From an uncultured Actinomycetes bacterium (GTDB lineage Bacteria; Actinomycetota; Acidimicrobiia; Acidimicrobiales; RAAP-2): DNA of 64,000 nt. Positions 4,358 through 61,334 of this stretch are shown piece by piece. The stretch lies in the NCBI GenBank assembly GCA_903828785.1, contig CAIKNP010000016.1:62001-126000 (forward strand), read 5' to 3'. Position 1 is the stretch's first letter; each line of letters starts with the position of its first letter. The translations under genes were made by a program, and so were the position numbers. The notes beneath the pieces are model-generated. The model made no database searches, had not been told where the DNA came from, and saw only the letters and a program-made list of their open reading frames with translations.

Positions 4358-5233
4358 TTATGCCACGGATAAGACTCCGTCAAGCGTTGTTGCCAGCGCT
4401 TCAAATTCAATTGGTGTGAGTTTGCCCAGGCTGCGCTTTCGACGGCGTCGGTGATAGGTGCGCTCGATCCATGTGACGATGGCCATGCGAAGTTCGTCCC
4501 TTGTTTCCCACCTCTTGGTGTTGAGGCCGTTCTTTTGCAACAGAGCGTGGAACGACTCCATGGCGGCGTTGCCACCAGCTGATGCAACTCGCCCCATCGA
4601 TCCACGCAGTCCGTTGTTCTTCAACATTCGAACAAAGGCGGTCGAACGAAACTGACTACCTCGGTCCGAATGGACCACTGTGTTGGTGGGGCTGCGCAGC
4701 GAGATGGCGTTTCGCAGTGCCGAAACTGCCAGGTCGCTTGTCATCCGCGAGCCAATGGAGTAGCCAACGATGCGGCCCGAAAACACATCGAGTAGCGAGG
4801 CCATGTAGAGGGTTCCCTCAATGGTCTTGTGTTCAGTGATGTCAGTCAGCCACACCTGGTTCATTTCGGTCGCTCGAAAGTCACGCTTGACGAGGTCGTC
4901 GTGGACCGGTGGCCCCGGTTTCTTGCCGTAACGGGATTTTTTGACGAAACTCGCCCAGATCTGAGCTTCAGAGCACAGTCGCCAAACACGCCGTTCACCA
5001 ATGGTGTGGCCCTTCACCACCAGTTCGTCCGCGAGGAATCGATACCCAAAGGGTGGATCATCACGGTGGGCGGCGACCAACAGATTGGTGAGGTAGGCAT
5101 CGTCGAACTCACGAGGTGAAATCGGTCGCTGCAGCCATTTGTAGTAACCCTGGGCGGAGAATTTGAGGACCCGGCAGGTGAGCCGAACGGGAATGCCGTC
5201 CTCGGCCAATTCACGCACCAGCGGGTAGGTCAT
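4358..5233 (-). CDS. IS3-family transposase OrfB (DDE integrase domain)
   Basis: The 291-aa protein carries an N-terminal HTH_21-type region (residues about 45-100) and an rve integrase core. The catalytic triad is complete: D131 (WLTDITE), D190 (VVHSDRGSQF) and E226 (NAAMESF), with the D-35-E spacing of the family. The C-terminal HRRRRKRSLG..TPIEFE block is also typical. Its ATG overlaps the orfA stop (ATGA), and orfB is in the -1 frame relative to orfA. It can therefore be made alone by coupling or as an OrfAB fusion by frameshifting. No inactivating lesion was seen. Confidence 0.95.
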   Translation of the reverse strand: MTYPLVRELAEDGIPVRLTCRVLKFSAQGYYKWLQRPISPREFDDAYLTNLLVAAHRDDPPFGYRFLADELVVKGHTIGERRVWRLCSEAQIWASFVKKSRYGKKPGPPVHDDLVKRDFRATEMNQVWLTDITEHKTIEGTLYMASLLDVFSGRIVGYSIGSRMTSDLAVSALRNAISLRSPTNTVVHSDRGSQFRSTAFVRMLKNNGLRGSMGRVASAGGNAAMESFHALLQKNGLNTKRWETRDELRMAIVTWIERTYHRRRRKRSLGKLTPIEFEALATTLDGVLSVA

Positions 5234-5523
5234 TTTGGGGCGAGGCCCTTAGCGAAATAGGCCGTTGCGCGCCGCAAAATCTCGACTTCTTGCTCAAGGA
5301 CGCGGTTGCGACGTCGTAGTTCACGCATCTCTGCGGCGTCTGCTTCGCTCACGCCATCTCGAACCCCATCCTCAACGTCTGCTTGACGAAGCCATTGATA
5401 GAGCGTCGGTTCCGATATGCCGAAGTCTCGAGCAATTTGTGATCGAGATGCGTCACCCAGTCGGGCCACGCGGACCACGTCATCTCGAAACTCTCGGGGG
5501 TATCTCTTTGCCATTGTTGCCAT
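5230..5523 (-). CDS. IS3-family OrfA (helix-turn-helix)
   Basis: This 97-aa protein starts at ATG 5523 with GGGGAAAG just upstream; an extended frame to 5562 exists but runs into the terminal repeat. The N-terminal HTH (RYPREFRDDVVRVARLG, then SQIARDFGISEPTLYQWL) binds IS ends. A C-terminal leucine-zipper-like segment (LRRRNRVLEQEVEILRRA) probably mediates OrfA/OrfAB oligomers. The heptamer CCCAAAA (5239-5233), in frame as C CCA AAA directly before TGA, fits the X XXY YYZ rule for -1 slippage. A hairpin lies immediately upstream (5530-5548). Confidence 0.88.
   Translation of the reverse strand: MATMAKRYPREFRDDVVRVARLGDASRSQIARDFGISEPTLYQWLRQADVEDGVRDGVSEADAAEMRELRRRNRVLEQEVEILRRATAYFAKGLAPK
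5233..5239 (-). promoter_or_regulatory. candidate -1 ribosomal slippery heptamer CCCAAAA
   Basis: The in-phase C CCA AAA is followed at once by the orfA TGA stop and overlaps the orfB ATG. Slippage would join orfA to orfB as ...KMTYP. The position and the -1 relation of the frames match the known IS3 fusion mechanism; use of this site is inferred. Confidence 0.55.
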
Positions 5524-5529
5524 CTTTCC

Positions 5530-5548
5530 CCAGAGGATGTTCCTCTGG
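5530..5548 (-). promoter_or_regulatory. hairpin upstream of orfA start
   Basis: An 8-bp perfect stem (CCAGAGGA / TCCTCTGG, 3-nt loop) ends at the GG of the GGGGAAAG ribosome-binding site. Such hairpins in other IS elements hide the start from read-through transcripts. That role here is inferred. Confidence 0.4.
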
Positions 5549-5556
5549 ATGTTAGA

Positions 5557-5581
5557 TGTCAACTAAACCGACAGCAGTCCC
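5557..5581. repeat. IS3 terminal inverted repeat (orfA side)
   Basis: 25 bp, the perfect reverse complement of 4317-4341. Confidence 0.9.
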
Positions 5582-39654: not shown

Positions 39655-40499
39655 TCCGCTCGAAGGTGGTGGTCGATGCGCGTCAGGGAAGCGCGCAGTA
39701 ATCCGTCGAGACCCAGATCGGTATTTTCGCGCGGTCCCTGCAAGGCGGTAACGCAGGCGTAGCCCGATTCCACGAGCACCAAGTCGTCATCGGGTTCCTC
39801 ACCGCTGGCGTCGCCGAGCTGAGGGGAGGCCTCGCCGTAGACGAGGTTGAAGATTCCTCGATCGGGCAGATCGCCACCACCTTCGACTGGCGCAACCGCC
39901 TCAACTAACACCGCGTCGGAAATGCGACCTCGACGGACACCCTTGATGGCGGACAAGGGGAGATTAGGTACGTTCAAGCTGATGGTCACCACCCCACGAG
40001 CTTGCAGCACTTCCTCAAGCACCTCGAGGGCCAGCGTGCCTGCCGACTGATAATGAATAAACTCGCCCCACTGGGCCGAGACGGCGACGCCGGGAATGCC
40101 CAGCTGGGCGGCGGTGAGCACGGCGCCAATGGTGCCCGAGTGCAGCACGCTGTGGCCCACGTTGGAGCCCGGGTTGATGCCCGAAAGCACGGCATCGGGA
40201 ATACCGCCGAAGGCCCCCAGGCAGCCAATGGTGGCGCACAGGGAAGGAGGGGCGACGATGCAGTAAGCGGGTATGCCCTCCGCCCCAGGGATGACGCGCC
40301 GTTCGTAGGAGACGGCCCCGTCTTCGAAGACGTTGCCCACGGCCGCCGCCGCCCCTGAGAAGTTTTGGTGAGGAGCGGCGATGACGGCTTCGCGTACCTC
40401 TCCTTCGGGGGCGTCAGCAATCCAGCGGGCGACGGTTTGGGCCATGACAACGAGTCCTTCGGCGTCGATACCATCATCATTTGTCAACAGAATCTTCAT
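39651..40499 (-). CDS. surE: 5'/3'-nucleotidase SurE
   Basis: The 282-aa protein has the SurE metal site LLTNDDGID (N7, D8, D9), HQNFSG, LSGINPGSNVGHSVLHSGTIGA, and SLNVPN. It is a cytosolic survival-type nucleotidase of the surE/tig/clp stress context. TAGGGT ends 6 nt before ATG 40499 with no Shine-Dalgarno, so it is probably leaderless. It is transcribed divergently from the epimerase gene. Confidence 0.95.
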   Translation of the reverse strand: MKILLTNDDGIDAEGLVVMAQTVARWIADAPEGEVREAVIAAPHQNFSGAAAAVGNVFEDGAVSYERRVIPGAEGIPAYCIVAPPSLCATIGCLGAFGGIPDAVLSGINPGSNVGHSVLHSGTIGAVLTAAQLGIPGVAVSAQWGEFIHYQSAGTLALEVLEEVLQARGVVTISLNVPNLPLSAIKGVRRGRISDAVLVEAVAPVEGGGDLPDRGIFNLVYGEASPQLGDASGEEPDDDLVLVESGYACVTALQGPRENTDLGLDGLLRASLTRIDHHLRAD

Positions 40500-40505
40500 A
40501 CCTTG

Positions 40506-40511
40506 ACCCTA
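40506..40511 (-). promoter_or_regulatory. -10 hexamer TAGGGT of leaderless surE
   Basis: TAGGGT-N6-ATG on the minus strand. Confidence 0.45.
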
Positions 40512-40552
40512 ATTGCCCTAAGTTAGAGATACGTGAACTAAAGGAACGAATC

Positions 40553-41473
40553 GTGTTACCTACTGGGGAACAAATCGCTATCGCCCACGGAGACCAGCGG
40601 GCCGTAATCACCGAAGTTGGAGCGACCTTGCGTACCTACGTCAAGGGTGGTGTTCCCGTGGTCGAGGGATTTGCCGCCGACGAGTTACCAACGGGCGCCC
40701 GGGGGCAGGTGCTGTATCCCTGGCCTAACCGCTTGGCCCCGACACCTTGGACCTTCTCGGATCGAACCGGTAACGGAAGCATTGATGATTTGGCCACCCA
40801 GACGCAGGAACACGGCATCGCGAAGTGGCGTCCTTTTCGGGTCGAAGCGGTTAATCAAAATCGGGTGCTGCTCACCCTGCTGCTTCACGCCACGCCCGAA
40901 TATCCCTTTGTCTCGGAAATTTCGGTGGCCTACCACCTCGGACCCATGGGCCTCACCGTAACGACGACCGTGGTCAATCGTGACTCGGTGCCTATTCCTT
41001 TTGGCGTGGGTTTCCACCCCTACGCCGCGGTGACTACCCCCACCATCGAGGGTGCCACCTTGCACGTGCCAGCGAAGTCCTACGTGGAGGTTGACGCGCG
41101 ACTCTTGCCCACCGGACTCATCCTTCCACTCGCCGCGAACGATCTCGACTTTTCTTTCCCTAAATCGGTCAACGGTCACGAACTTGACGTCACCTACACC
41201 GACCTACTGCGCGACGACTCGGGACTCTTTTCGGCGACGTTGACGGACCGCAGCGGGGGTAACGTTGAAATCCAGATGGACCGTAACTTCCCCTACCTGC
41301 AGGTCTACACCGGTGACACCCTCGAAAAGGGGCGACGCCGTACGGCGGTAGCGATCGAACCAATGACCTGCCCACCCGAAGCCCTGCGTTCGGGCAAGGA
41401 CCTACTCATTCTCGAACCAGATCAGCACTGGGCCGGTTCGTGGCGAATTCGTCGCAGCGACGCAATCGGCTAG
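40553..41473 (+). CDS. aldose 1-epimerase family protein
   Basis: The 306-aa protein starts at GTG 40553 with AAAGGA upstream; the frame extends back into surE without support. It is an all-beta mutarotase fold: YPWPNRLAP (substrate Arg), QEHGIAKW (first His), GVGFHPYA (catalytic His) and IEPMTCPPEALRSG (catalytic Glu). It interconverts alpha and beta anomers of hexoses in the cytosol; the specific sugar is unknown. It lies immediately upstream of clpS. Confidence 0.9.
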   Translation: MLPTGEQIAIAHGDQRAVITEVGATLRTYVKGGVPVVEGFAADELPTGARGQVLYPWPNRLAPTPWTFSDRTGNGSIDDLATQTQEHGIAKWRPFRVEAVNQNRVLLTLLLHATPEYPFVSEISVAYHLGPMGLTVTTTVVNRDSVPIPFGVGFHPYAAVTTPTIEGATLHVPAKSYVEVDARLLPTGLILPLAANDLDFSFPKSVNGHELDVTYTDLLRDDSGLFSATLTDRSGGNVEIQMDRNFPYLQVYTGDTLEKGRRRTAVAIEPMTCPPEALRSGKDLLILEPDQHWAGSWRIRRSDAIG

Positions 41474-41475
41474 CG

Positions 41476-41784
41476 ATGCCTTCACTTAAGCCTCTACGCG
41501 CGCCCGATCTCACCACGACGACAACGACGTCGACTATTGACGAGGTGGAGCGACCCTGGAACGTAGTGGTGTGGAATGACCCCGTCACACCTATGCAGGT
41601 CGTGGTGGTCGTGTTTAAAAAGATCTTTGGTTACGCCGACAACAAGGCAACGGCCCTCATGCTTACCGTGCATCACGAGGGACGCGCCATCGTGTGGTCG
41701 GGTGCGGCCGATAAGGCGCAGTCGTACTGCGTGAAACTCCAGGTGGCGGGATTGATGGCCACGATAGAGCAGGACGCCAGCTAG
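41476..41784 (+). CDS. clpS: ATP-dependent Clp protease adaptor ClpS
   Basis: The 102-aa protein contains the ClpS signature WNVVVWNDPVTPMQVVVVVFKKIFG, whose N-D-x-V and Met residues form the N-degron pocket, and HHEGRAIVWSGAADKAQ for ClpA/C N-domain docking. The N-terminal extension is Thr-rich. ATG 41476 lies 3 bp after the epimerase stop. It delivers N-end-rule substrates to ClpAP/ClpCP and is coupled by TAGTG overlap to the DUF2017 gene. Confidence 0.95.
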   Translation: MPSLKPLRAPDLTTTTTTSTIDEVERPWNVVVWNDPVTPMQVVVVVFKKIFGYADNKATALMLTVHHEGRAIVWSGAADKAQSYCVKLQVAGLMATIEQDAS

Positions 41785-42212
41785 TGGCCAAACTCTTCGC
41801 GCGCCGACGTGATGGTCGAATTGAGGTCAAGCTCAATGACGAGGGACGCGCGGTTGCTCGTGAGGCTTTTGGCCGGGTGTACGTGGCCGAGCATGACAGT
41901 GAGCACGAGTGGCACAAGACGCTCAACAGCCCCATCGATCCCAGCCGGGACCTTGACGATCCAATGCTGGTTCTGGCGCGTCAGAGTCAAACAGGCAGCA
42001 ACGCCGAATTAGCGATTGCGACCCTACACGAACAGTTTCTCACGCCCCAAGAAGCGTGGGCGTGGCTGACTACCTTGCAGGTGGCCCTTCGGGCAACCGC
42101 CGTGGTGAACAACATCTACGACGAGGACCATCTCGCCGCGGCCGATCCAGTCTTACTCGACTACGTTCGCACCCTGCAGATTTTCCTCTTTGCCCTCGCT
42201 GAGTTGCTCTAG
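41784..42212 (+). CDS. DUF2017 family protein
   Basis: The 142-aa acidic, helical protein shares its first base with the clpS stop. The position after clpS and the pattern LNSPIDPSRDLDDPM, LLDYVRTLQIFLFALAELL match the DUF2017 family of actinobacteria, whose genes regularly follow clpS. The function is unknown; a helper role in N-degron proteolysis is a guess from context. Confidence 0.82.
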   Translation: MAKLFARRRDGRIEVKLNDEGRAVAREAFGRVYVAEHDSEHEWHKTLNSPIDPSRDLDDPMLVLARQSQTGSNAELAIATLHEQFLTPQEAWAWLTTLQVALRATAVVNNIYDEDHLAAADPVLLDYVRTLQIFLFALAELL

Positions 42213-42587: not shown

Positions 42588-42665
42588 TGGGGTGAGTGAC
42601 GGGTCTCGAACCCGCGGCCTCCAGGACCACAACCTGGCGCTCTAACCAGCTGAGCTACACCCACC
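42588..42665 (-). tRNA. tRNA-His (GTG)
   Basis: Acceptor GTGGGTG/CACTCAC, anticodon loop TTGTGGT with anticodon GTG. G-1 (42665) faces discriminator C73, as tRNA-His requires, and CCA is encoded (42590-42588). Confidence 0.95.
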
Positions 42666-42737
42666 AAGGACTTCTAGCCTACATCGAAAACCCGAAGCCA
42701 CCCTCATCTGGTTTCGAATGACCACTGACGTGATTTG

Positions 42738-44466
42738 TTATGCCTTGAACGATACCGACGCCGGCGCCGACGGGTAGAAGAATTTCTGCGGTGAAAATTC
42801 GGCGGCACCTCCGTTGTAGACGCCGTGCAGGACAAAGGTTCCGTGGCTGGACGGCGCTGGTAGCGAGCAAGACGCCGTGCTCACAGTGTTGAAAAACTTG
42901 TAGGGGCCCACCTTTTGACTGGACTTCGAGACGGCGATTGATGCCGTACACGAGTGACCATTGGCGCTGAACGTTACGGTTCCCTGTGGTGTGGGTGGAG
43001 TGCCCGGACCCCCGTGCTGGACGTTCCAATACACGGTGCCGACGGCCAAGAAATGGGCTCCAACGCTTACCGATTTTGGTGGCGAAATGGAGAGAGCCGA
43101 CGGATCGCCAACGGGAGTTGCTACCGAGAGAGATGCCGCTCCAGATCCCAGTGGGGTGTAGGGGAACACCGCCAGCGTGATACTGCGTCCTACGTTGAAG
43201 AGGTAGGCAAGGTTCACCGTCGCCATTGTGCGGGTGGTCGCAATCGGTCCGAAGAGGCCATCCTTGCCATTGATGAGCACGTGGTAGTTCGTTACTGATG
43301 ACGGATTCACCGCTGGTGCGCGCCACGAGACGGTGGCGATTCCGAATCGTGAAACGCGCACTCGCACGTCGCGAGGCGCCGACGAAGGGGCAAGGTTTAG
43401 TGGAAATTCGATCCCGGTGTTTACCCAAAGTTGACCCGCGTGGGCGGCAATGACGGGCGGTGAGTAGCAATTATTAACGCAGACGGTCGGTTCTAGGGAG
43501 GTGGTATCAATGCAACCAACCGAGACGACGGAAGACCTTGCTGTGAGGACCACCTTTTTGAGTGGCGCACAGGTTCCGTCACCACTCTTGACGGGAACGC
43601 TCGCAATCCACACCGTTCCATTGTCAAACGTGACCGAAGCTGGATTCACGTTGGCGATAATTGCAGCGACCGTGCCGTCACCATTAAGAGCAAGAAGCCG
43701 CTTTCCCTGGGTCGCCCAAAGGGTGGTCCCGTCCGTGGTGAATGGGGTCGCGGAGGTGAAGGTGCTCGTACACGTTCCGCCATCGAACCTATTCAAATTA
43801 ATCGTGGAATTGAGGGAATAGGAGACAAGGCTGACTTCTTCGATGGTGCATCCCTCGCTGGGGGCAAACCAGAGATTGCTGCCAACCTCAAGTAACTGCC
43901 CGTGCTGGCCGTCCGAGGACGTGCTGTCCAATCCAATCGACTGGGTCTGCACCCCACTGCTTTTGTCAAATCCAAAGAGGCTTTCATTGAAGCCATCCGA
44001 GGACGCAACCCACAATGTGTTGTTGTCAACGACGAAGGCGTCGATACTCGCCGACTGTCCGGGCAGTGCGAAGGAGGTGGTCGAAATTGGCGTACACGAG
44101 GTGGGACCGTATTGGTTTACCTGGACTGAGGTCTGGGTGACGGACGATGACGTTACCCCGATAGTCCAAAGGTGGCCGCCAAAGTACGCGGTTGACGAGC
44201 CCGACAGTGAGCAGTGCAAGAGTCTCGCGCCAGAGTTATTCGAATAGAGGTCCGCCGTCACTTCACCGATATACCAGGTCGACGTCGGCCCTGGAAATAT
44301 CTCGGAAGCAACGCCAGCCAACACGTGCACCAACGAAGGCGGGGGGGGCCGCATTCGCCGTTGCTCCCCATGGGCGTGCGCCGGGGAGCGCGAACACGGC
44401 CATTGCAATGACGAGTCCAGCGAGTGCTTGCTTGGCATCGAGTTCGCTGAAGGGCCGGCTCTTCAT
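42738..44466 (-). pseudogene. secreted propeller-FN3-Ig-like protein gene, frameshifted in poly-C
   Basis: Two frames must be joined to give a sensible product. ATG 44466 (GAGAGG 8 nt upstream) encodes a signal peptide MKSRPFSELDAKQALAGLVI... ending ATANA. At a run of eight C (44348-44341) the frame must shift by one base to enter the long frame, which has no good start of its own. The mature part (about 535 aa) has repeated LWVAS/LWFAP/LWATQ strands of a beta-propeller (to about 350), a fibronectin type III domain (APRDVRVRVSRFGIATVSWRAP) and a C-terminal Ig-like domain (GTVTFSANGHSCTASI). It is an exported surface protein. Phase variation, a true mutation or a homopolymer sequencing error are the alternatives. 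Confidence 0.78.
44341..44348 (-). repeat. C8 homopolymer at signal-peptide junction
   Basis: Eight consecutive C on the coding strand. With seven, the signal peptide is in frame with the mature protein (ANA-APPPSLVHVL). Confidence 0.8.
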
Positions 44467-44609
44467 TTTCGTTCACCTCTCGTCTTGGCTTAAGTTGACA
44501 ATCGTAATATCGCGACGACCTCCCCGAGTGATTTTGGGAGATAGCTCGAATGGCAACGGAGGCACCAGCTCAACGCATTTTGCCCTCTCGGTGAGTACGA
44601 TGGGTGCAC

Positions 44610-44682
44610 GCCCCAGTAGCTCAATGGATAGAGCAACGGAGTTCTAACCCGCAGGTTGCAAGTTCGACTCTTGCCTGGGGCA
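44610..44682 (+). tRNA. tRNA-Arg (TCT), atypical anticodon stem
   Basis: Perfect acceptor GCCCCAG/CTGGGGC, D-arm GCTC/GAGC, T-arm GCAAG/CTTGC with TTCGACT, anticodon TCT in loop GTTCTAA. The anticodon stem ACGGA/CCCGC has only three pairs: A27-C43 and A31-C39 do not match. CCA is not encoded. It is probably functional in overall shape, but the stem is odd. Confidence 0.8.
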
Positions 44683-44827
44683 CGAGTACATCGGCAAAGT
44701 GATCGTCCCAGCTTGAGACTTCGCTAGTTCGTGAAGTGGAACATCGAGCTGCTGCCTGGTCCTGGGCCGAGCCCTAGCGAAGCGCCGGCATCGCCGGTTG
44801 AGGGAGCAGTCCCCATCGCCTGCCCCG

Positions 44828-59678: not shown

Positions 59679-61334
59679 GTGAGCGACGAAACCAATTCTC
59701 AATCCCCACCCGCCCCCAGCCCGCGCATTGGTGACACTCGTCCCGCCCCGCAAATAGGCGATACGCGACCGGGGTCTAGTTCGACGCCGTCGCGTGAATC
59801 GGCGGAAAGCGCCAAGTCCGGTGCCGCCGGCCCCCGTCGCCGCCGTGGCGGCCGTGGTCGCGGTGGGCAAGGCGGACAGGGTGGTCAAGGTGGGCAAGGC
59901 GGACAGGGTGGTCAAGGTGGGCAGGGCGGTCAAGGCGGAAGTCCTCGCCGGAACACTCCTCGACCCGCTTCAACGCCGATTGAGGCCTCCGCGCCCGAGG
60001 TCGATGATGACGCACGCTCGAAGCGTGGCGGTCGACGTCGGGGGGCTGACCGTGGAGGTCGCCAACAAGGTCGCTACCTCATGTGCGTGCACAGCACGAA
60101 GGACGCCACGCACATCGCTACTCTCGAGGGCCGCACCCTAGTGGAATACACGGTCGCCAAGGCGGCTGACGAAACGAGCCAGATCGACGGAAATATCTAC
60201 GTTGGTCGCATTCAGAACGTGTTGCCGGGTATGGAGTTAGCCTTCGTCGACATTGGCATTCCTAAGAATGCCGTTCTCTACCGTGCGGACATTTCGTTGA
60301 ACGATGACGACGTTGAAACGACCGGAAGGAACAATGATCGTCGTATCGAACAGATGATTCGTTCGGGTCAGACCATCATCTGCCAAGTCACCAAGAACGC
60401 CATTGGCGCGAAGGGTGCCCGATTGACCCAAGAAGTGTCCCTACCCGGACGTTTCGCCGTGCTGGTGCCTAACTCCAACACCATCGGCATCTCCAAGCGC
60501 CTGCCCGATGGGGAGCGTCGACGACTGCGTCGTATCATTGACGAAGTCAAACCCGAGCGGCACGGCATCATTATTCGGACTGCCGCCGAGGGGGTATCGG
60601 AGGCCGATCTGGCGCGCGACGTGACCTCGCTGTGCGCCAAGTGGGACGCCATCGAGGCCGAGGTGGCCAAGGCGAGCCACCCACGGCTCATCTATCGTGA
60701 CCTCGATTTGGCGGTTCGCGTCCTGCGCGAGGAACTCAACGAGGACTATCGCGGTGTGCTCATCGACGATCCCGAGCTCTTCGACAAGGTTCGCGAGTAC
60801 GTCACCGCCGTCAATCCCGAGCTCGCGGACCGTATTGAGTTCTACGATCGCAAAACCGAAGACCTGCCCCTCTTCGAGCGCCACTTCGTTCACGAGCAGC
60901 TGCACCGAGCGCTGGACCGCAAGGTGTTCTTACCCTCGGGGGGATCGCTCATCATCGAACGCACCGAAGCCCTGACCGTCATTGACGTCAATACCGGCAA
61001 GAACGTGGGAACGACGAACCTTGAGGAGACGGTGTTCCGTAATAATCTCGAGGCCGCGGAGGAGGTCGCGCGACAGTTACGACTGCGCGACATTGGTGGC
61101 ATTATCGTCATTGACTTCATCGACATGGAGCCCAAAGCCAATCGTGAAGCCGTCGCTGGCGCCTTGCGCAACGCCCTCAGTCGGGATAAGACCCGCACCC
61201 AGGTTTTTGATATTTCTGAGCTGGGACTGATTGAAATGACCCGAAAGCGGGTCAATGAGGGTCTGCTCGAGTCCGTTTCATCGCTTTGTGCCGTCTGCGA
61301 CGGCCGTGGCTTCGTTATTGACGCGAAACTGTAG
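59679..61334 (+). CDS. ribonuclease E/G family endoribonuclease
   Basis: The 551-aa protein has an N-terminal disordered, basic, repeat-rich tail (1-130, with GGQ x 8), then the catalytic region: S1 domain (EYTVAKAADETSQIDGNIYVGRIQNVLPGMELAFVDIG in parts), RNase H-like/5' sensor (RLTQEVSLPGR), DNase I-like domain with metal Asp in VIDVNTGKN and IIVIDFIDM, and a zinc-link CxxC (SLCAVCDGRG). There is no long C-terminal scaffold. It begins mRNA decay and rRNA/tRNA processing. GTG start after AAGGAG. rplU follows, a common order. Confidence 0.95.
   Translation: MSDETNSQSPPAPSPRIGDTRPAPQIGDTRPGSSSTPSRESAESAKSGAAGPRRRRGGRGRGGQGGQGGQGGQGGQGGQGGQGGQGGSPRRNTPRPASTPIEASAPEVDDDARSKRGGRRRGADRGGRQQGRYLMCVHSTKDATHIATLEGRTLVEYTVAKAADETSQIDGNIYVGRIQNVLPGMELAFVDIGIPKNAVLYRADISLNDDDVETTGRNNDRRIEQMIRSGQTIICQVTKNAIGAKGARLTQEVSLPGRFAVLVPNSNTIGISKRLPDGERRRLRRIIDEVKPERHGIIIRTAAEGVSEADLARDVTSLCAKWDAIEAEVAKASHPRLIYRDLDLAVRVLREELNEDYRGVLIDDPELFDKVREYVTAVNPELADRIEFYDRKTEDLPLFERHFVHEQLHRALDRKVFLPSGGSLIIERTEALTVIDVNTGKNVGTTNLEETVFRNNLEAAEEVARQLRLRDIGGIIVIDFIDMEPKANREAVAGALRNALSRDKTRTQVFDISELGLIEMTRKRVNEGLLESVSSLCAVCDGRGFVIDAKL
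59862..59933 (+). repeat. 27-bp tandem repeat encoding (Gly-Gly-Gln)8
   Basis: Two identical 27-bp copies (59862-59888, 59889-59915) and a partial, diverged third encode eight GGQ triplets. The identity marks recent slippage. Confidence 0.9.

Follow-up and report, generated by a model that had tools for sequence, protein, structure and literature searches.

An eight-cytosine run between a signal-peptide-like reading frame and its putative mature body in an actinobacterial draft genome: a possible slipped OFF allele of an exported protein

Does a frame break between an export signal and the body of a putative surface protein represent the OFF state of a switchable gene, or does it come from the draft assembly, from events at the RNA level or from ordinary decay? 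The question is raised by one gene on the minus strand of the window, as we call the whole 64-kb stretch of DNA that was analysed, lying between a tRNA-His gene downstream (42588..42664, minus strand) and a divergent tRNA-Arg gene upstream (44610..44683, plus strand). A run of eight cytosines at 44341..44348 (minus strand; G8 on the plus strand), exactly where the preliminary description had placed it, is the likeliest meeting point of the two reading frames; no other G/C run in the window exceeds a length of 6. The first frame opens at ATG 44466 and forms an ORF of 67 aa (44263..44466, minus strand). Its Shine-Dalgarno (SD) site, GAGAGGTG, is located at 44474..44481 (minus strand), and the anti-SD energy of the upstream region, -7.5 kcal/mol, is equalled by 4.2% of the ATGs in the window (n = 1565), in agreement with the good ribosome-binding site noted before. 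The anti-SD letters behind this and the following SD energies are presumed. The encoded N-terminus resembles a signal peptide, as had also been proposed, with a charged start, then a hydrophobic core and an AxA-type site just 5' of the run, at which the peptide reads ...GATANAAPP. With a home-made signal-peptide and SD filter, a rough one that retained 18 of 748 open ATGs, several of them plainly spurious, ATG 44466 obtained the fifth-best score.

The second frame, on the same strand, covers 42738..44438 and would encode 566 aa from ATG 44438, with 533 residues past the run, so that a body of about 530 aa off the signal-peptide frame is indeed present. No signal peptide was seen in this frame from ATG 44438, whose SD energy of -1.1 makes it a start without SD. 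A further body-frame ATG at 44354 (44352..44354, minus strand), three bases 5' of the run, is a candidate leaderless start; GGGGAG, an SD-like site (-7.0 kcal/mol), precedes it by 9 nt. The preliminary description had overlooked this second possible start as well as a predicted hairpin at 44348-44400, within which the ATG and its SD-like site lie. In a codon likelihood scan, the signal-peptide frame, followed from 44438 to the run, was ahead of a start at 44438 by about 9 nats; between 44349 and 44270 the curve hardly varied, and it peaked numerically at 44272. The codon statistics are compatible with the C8 run as the junction, as had been claimed, but they do not pin the junction to it, and the exact placement is argued from the cleavage-type site together with the run rather than from codon usage. 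The G+C content of the gene is slightly below that of the neighbouring genes, and a promoter scan of 42600-44700 returned no sigma-70-like site.

The body itself is best described as beta-rich, perhaps with one fibronectin type III (FN3) domain. Against the profile libraries, the FN3 domain named earlier was recovered as a single sub-threshold match (E 0.011, 16.4 bits for a cut-off of 25), the Ig-like match was at chance level (E 0.11) and nothing in these libraries supported the propeller. The single NCBIfam match (E 0.065) was far under its cut-off, the PHROG search gave no match, and the best PDB match was a receptor tyrosine phosphatase at E 0.12. The AlphaFold model of the body as a single sequence was mostly beta, but its pLDDT of 42.7 renders it unusable.

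Relatives of the gene were sought at several levels. No orthologue was found in 98 genus-mates, where the only matches were two weak and partial ones (24% identity; G010 L003 and G063 L069), nor in a draw of 397 genomes from the order (396 others, some genus-mates repeated) at E 1e-4, nor among viral contigs and plasmids. A wide scan of genome contigs returned none as well; this negative is weak, since the same insensitive tool missed known relatives of a neighbour gene that are present in 20 genus-mates at 43-68% identity. In the 20 relatives' loci of that neighbour gene none had the tRNA-Lys/tRNA-His pair; tRNA-Lys alone was present in two (L022 and L034), and the ORF that comes after it in L022 resembles, by eye, an aldehyde dehydrogenase and is not a relative of the gene. 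tRNA-Arg was found in 0 of 9 relatives' loci of another neighbour gene. These synteny results are a weak negative because the loci extend at most about 1.5 kb per side. With no orthologue found and the tRNA setting not shared in the relatives' loci, no comparison by sequence or synteny was obtained; the copy in this genome is the only one found, and a single tract length has been seen.

Long G/C runs are purged from this genome. Its 1.56 Mb contain three G/C runs of at least 8, whereas about 42-47 would be expected under a second-order Markov model (scaled from about 10 in 358 kb or 2 in 64 kb); first-order and third-order models scale to about 83 and about 54. In the coding sequence of the window (50 kb, with the body and without the run), runs of at least 7 number 0, vs 7.7 expected from synonymous reshuffling. 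A general underrepresentation of poly(C) and poly(G) in prokaryotes has been reported (PMC2831843). As the frame break falls at one of so few runs, a coincidence is unlikely, and the run and the break are probably linked. The second G8 of the genome is read in-frame within an uninterrupted ORF, by eye that of a PASTA-type kinase, and the third run of at least 8 is apparently intergenic. On the other hand, the run is ordinary for the peptide it encodes, which detracts from the earlier view of the homopolymer as a switch site: 826 of 3000 synonymous recodings of the Ala/Pro stretch (28%) contained a C run of at least 7; its presence does not call for selection for slippage and is not evidence of such selection.

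We favour, with a probability of roughly 0.4, the reading that the assembly has captured an OFF allele that is real, arose by slippage and could in principle revert. The gene would encode a Sec-exported protein whose frame is set by the length of the C run that separates the signal peptide from the mature body. In the assembled C8 genotype the gene would be OFF, with translation from ATG 44466 yielding an export tag and stopping after 67 codons. A one-base slippage during replication, aided by the adjoining hairpin and the apparent absence of MutS and NucS, would then produce a tag-body fusion that is secreted. The indel would accordingly be presumed biological, both states would be presumed to occur in the population, and the switching would be presumed to have a use and not to be an accident. 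This reading fits the two frames, the run and the start signals, homopolymer length does set the frame at the coding region, as in phase-variable genes, and the 533 codons of the body are open with no stop, indicating that it is not long decayed. In its favour are also the purging of G/C runs, the in-frame reading of the other G8, and the mismatch repair background and actinobacterial precedent described below. Against it, the allele is single and no orthologue was found that could show the run or the fusion to be kept, plain pseudogenes also occur in the genome, and more than a quarter of the synonymous recodings carry a comparable run.

Profiles of both mismatch repair proteins gave no match in this genome, a 28-contig draft that is 96.5% complete: MutS_V, searched in this genome, was found by the control in 11 of 14 genomes, and NucS_C in 7 of 14. 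Across the genus, NucS_C was recovered in 4 of 99 genomes, as partial matches above the cut-off (27.6-34 bits). With MutS and NucS both undetected, slipped intermediates might go unrepaired. As an observation in its own right, the joint lack of detection points to a possible lineage without known mismatch repair; species without both MutS and NucS are known, and NucS has been reported from one Acidimicrobiia species (PMC5290159). The phylum of the present genome was judged from its gene content.

Homopolymer switches of surface proteins have precedents. In Neisseria, poly-G/poly-C phase variation of the pilC/opc type involves long tracts, many loci per genome and proven switching; like it, the present case has its homopolymer close to the 5' end of the gene for a surface protein, here a putative one, but it is one locus of length 8. 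The closest layout has been published in another actinobacterium, B. breve UCC2003, where slippage at the G-tracts of the sortase-pilus switches bbr_0113 and bbr_1889 restores the fusion in part of the population (PMC9187656). There too, the Sec signal and the body lie in separate ORFs that are joined when the homopolymer changes length, by single-base slippage, and the anatomy of our locus may, by analogy, work like this pilin switch. The second ORFs of B. breve start without SD, as does ATG 44438 here, whereas ATG 44354 has an SD-like site within the hairpin. Moreover, B. breve and B. longum present G-tracts of about 9-12, a sortase-pilin operon, measured length variants and electron microscopy of pili, while here a C8 in a single gene is seen at one length, and eight is short for a fast switch by comparison with these bifidobacterial tracts (PMC9187656). 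The frame split at a secretion junction that had been noted before is real in the assembly, and its layout matches that of a known switch. In M. tuberculosis, likewise an actinobacterium, phase variation by indels in homopolymeric tracts has been reported for ESX-1 (PMC11898584) and also glpK, and frameshift-and-restore indels have been proposed as reversible gene silencing (PMC8339072), in a study of scars that omitted indels in homopolymers of at least 5; signal-peptide junctions are not a described feature of these cases in the parts of the reports drawn upon here. Among the papers found on phase variation in acidimicrobial bacteria, none was, to judge by title and opening abstract lines, about such a gene. 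If the switch is real, control of secretion by a homopolymer would reach into a lineage with small genomes, in a genome where neither MutS nor NucS was detected, and the locus would be a simple test case for an abutting RNA hairpin making a short C run a slippage site.

The tracts of the genus were inspected for a wider family of such switches. The sample comprised 110 tracts of G8 or C8 and longer, which are the first-listed places and a minor part of those counted; 96 had a length of 8, nine of 9, four of 10 and one of 15. An automatic codon test classified 68 as in frame, 10 as candidate breaks and left 32 unclassified (with the three runs of our own genome, 113 tracts: 69 in frame, 10 breaks and 34 other). 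By eye, two of the ten candidates were in frame (L035, L039), five were gene junctions (L048, L104, L123, L131, L134), one adjoined an N gap (L052) and two were in-gene breaks with no nearby assembly gap. In the first of these (L146:460-1480, G017:C79), a G8 splits an alpha/beta-hydrolase after its GHS motif and divides the Pfam profile between two frames; in the second (L128, about 1001-1008, G009:C33), a C8 splits a membrane protein, cytochrome b-like by eye, of which Pfam matched neither frame. Neither break is located at a signal peptide. A rough filter for a signal peptide or membrane segment before the run was passed by 4 of the 110 tracts (L060, L081, L097, L149), all of them best continued in the same frame, which again speaks against the homopolymer as a habitual switch site. 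One of these genus-mate loci, L060, has a C8 near 1501 right behind an N-terminal membrane-like segment, with the best continuation in-frame. In our own genome and the 110 sampled tracts, with their 32 unclassified members, no other frame break was found at a signal-peptide junction. The present case is rare and outside any visible switch family, and it is of a kind that biology or draft assembly can produce; the scarcity of gene breaks in the sample, two besides the one by an N gap, counts to this extent against a slipped OFF allele.

Those two in-gene breaks at G8/C8 in genus-mate drafts also lend weight to the alternative that survives best, a slip of sequencing or assembly, which we hold to be unlikely but serious. 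In this case the gene would be intact, and the reads or the consensus would have gained a base where the region has its longest G/C run, beside a hairpin. The draft consists of 28 contigs, the break falls at a homopolymer, the body and the start signals look healthy, and Illumina reads have been reported to suffer at G-tracts (PMC9187656). Against this stand the in-frame reading of another G8 in the same genome and ten window ORFs tested with Pfam, which showed no split domain (three had no match). Moreover, a hidden Markov model (HMM) with frameshift states was run over 358 kb of the genome, a selection that takes in the three contigs bearing runs of at least 8. It made 111 raw frame-break calls, most of which we took as gene overlaps, and within 40 nt of 110 G/C runs of 6-7 there were 0 of the 12 strictest calls and 1 of the 111 raw ones. 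Depending on the threshold, the model recovered 51-71 of 88 simulated one-base insertions (51 at the strictest) and retained 12-97 of the 111 native calls; a first filter, which retained 6 of 59 simulated insertions, was discarded. The result argues against an assembly that is generally prone to indels, and thereby favours a slipped OFF allele, yet it is of little informative value for runs of 8, of which the genome has just three. The model misses the break studied here, probably because the signal peptide is short, and one call, at window position 59965, was false by eye, falling in a repetitive stretch inside an open ORF. If an assembly slip is nevertheless the cause, calls of phase-variable genes in draft genomes need read support.

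The hairpin beside the run brings in transcription. The predicted structure (44348..44400, minus strand, 53 nt) is a single closed hairpin with an energy of -35.4 kcal/mol (z -3.80; none of 200 shuffles was as stable), and its last pair involves the first C of the run. Allowing any length, an abutting hairpin of equal strength was found at 3 of 1500 random coding positions and at one other of 499 sampled G/C runs; 24 of 3000 synonymous variants were equally stable, as were 9 of the 3000 codon shuffles, and it ranks second among the 223 flanks of the 113 G8 or C8 and longer tracts. It is conceivable, though improbable, that the C8 is true and that RNA polymerase, owing to the nascent hairpin, omits one C in some transcripts, which would encode the secreted fusion, the rest giving the short tag. 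A strong predicted hairpin directly 5' of the run is the arrangement of stem-loop-mediated transcriptional slippage, and losing one C is what would bring tag and body into one frame. In the IS630 of Roseiflexus, RNA polymerase skips a C because of a stem-loop adjoining U5C5 on its 5' side, as reviewed in PMC5009743; there, as here, the stem-loop lies directly 5' of the motif, and the frame becomes productive when one C is left out. That case was shown experimentally, with U5C5 in a transposase gene; ours has a pure C8 run, a putative surface-protein gene for which no orthologue was found, and a predicted hairpin. The bacterial cases described in the sources used are IS elements, type III secretion genes, dnaX and endosymbiont poly(A) genes.

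The hairpin is in fact suggestive and no proof, since it was spotted post hoc after folding and the fold over a wider 111 nt is ordinary (z -0.92) in a region of 75% G+C. An earlier control restricted to even lengths, and hence unfair to the target, had 10 of 400 random positions matching the weaker hairpin then found. A hairpin may also pause DNA polymerases and hinder sequencing, and so replication slippage, transcriptional slippage and an assembly slip are raised by it together. More doubtful still is the specific claim that hairpin and C8 at the signal-peptide junction constitute a programmed, stem-loop-stimulated transcriptional slippage (possibly of DNA polymerase too), by which part of the transcripts of one genotype would encode an exported protein, outside IS elements.

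Just as improbable as slippage by RNA polymerase is a fixed frameshift, at which an accessory gene of a small genome would be starting ordinary decay. Decay elsewhere in the genome makes this a fair rival. Among the 12 strictest HMM calls three were confirmed, and all of them concern one response regulator and sensor kinase (L164:149-2186, i.e. G000:C22 at about 40149-42186), where the regulator is frame-broken near C22:40695 and the adjacent kinase has an in-frame TGA near C22:41644, so that this two-component system is, to judge by its sequence, in decay. Furthermore, the genome is smaller than those of most genus-mates listed, and the finding of no more than the two weak partial matches in 98 genus-mates suggests a gene that is dispensable at the genus level. 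Decay, however, has to account for a single lesion located at the most mutable site, followed by 533 stop-free codons.

It is very unlikely that there is no break at all and that the body starts at ATG 44354, leaderless, as a cytosolic or non-classically exported protein, with the upstream ORF as a separate leader. The SD-like GGGGAG would serve such a start, yet site and ATG would be buried in a predicted hairpin of about -35 kcal/mol, the N-terminus would read MRPPPPSL with no signal, and the upstream ORF is signal-peptide-like, with its cleavage-type site just 5' of the run. Ribosomal +1 frameshifting is not known to be stimulated by a hairpin located upstream. Such frameshifting on CCC-C by tRNA-Pro, which has been described (PMC8324841), is possible in principle and is placed below all the foregoing explanations. 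Elsewhere in the window, at 4358-5562 (minus strand), two overlapping IS3-type transposase-like ORFs, recognized by eye, display an ordinary programmed-frameshift arrangement.
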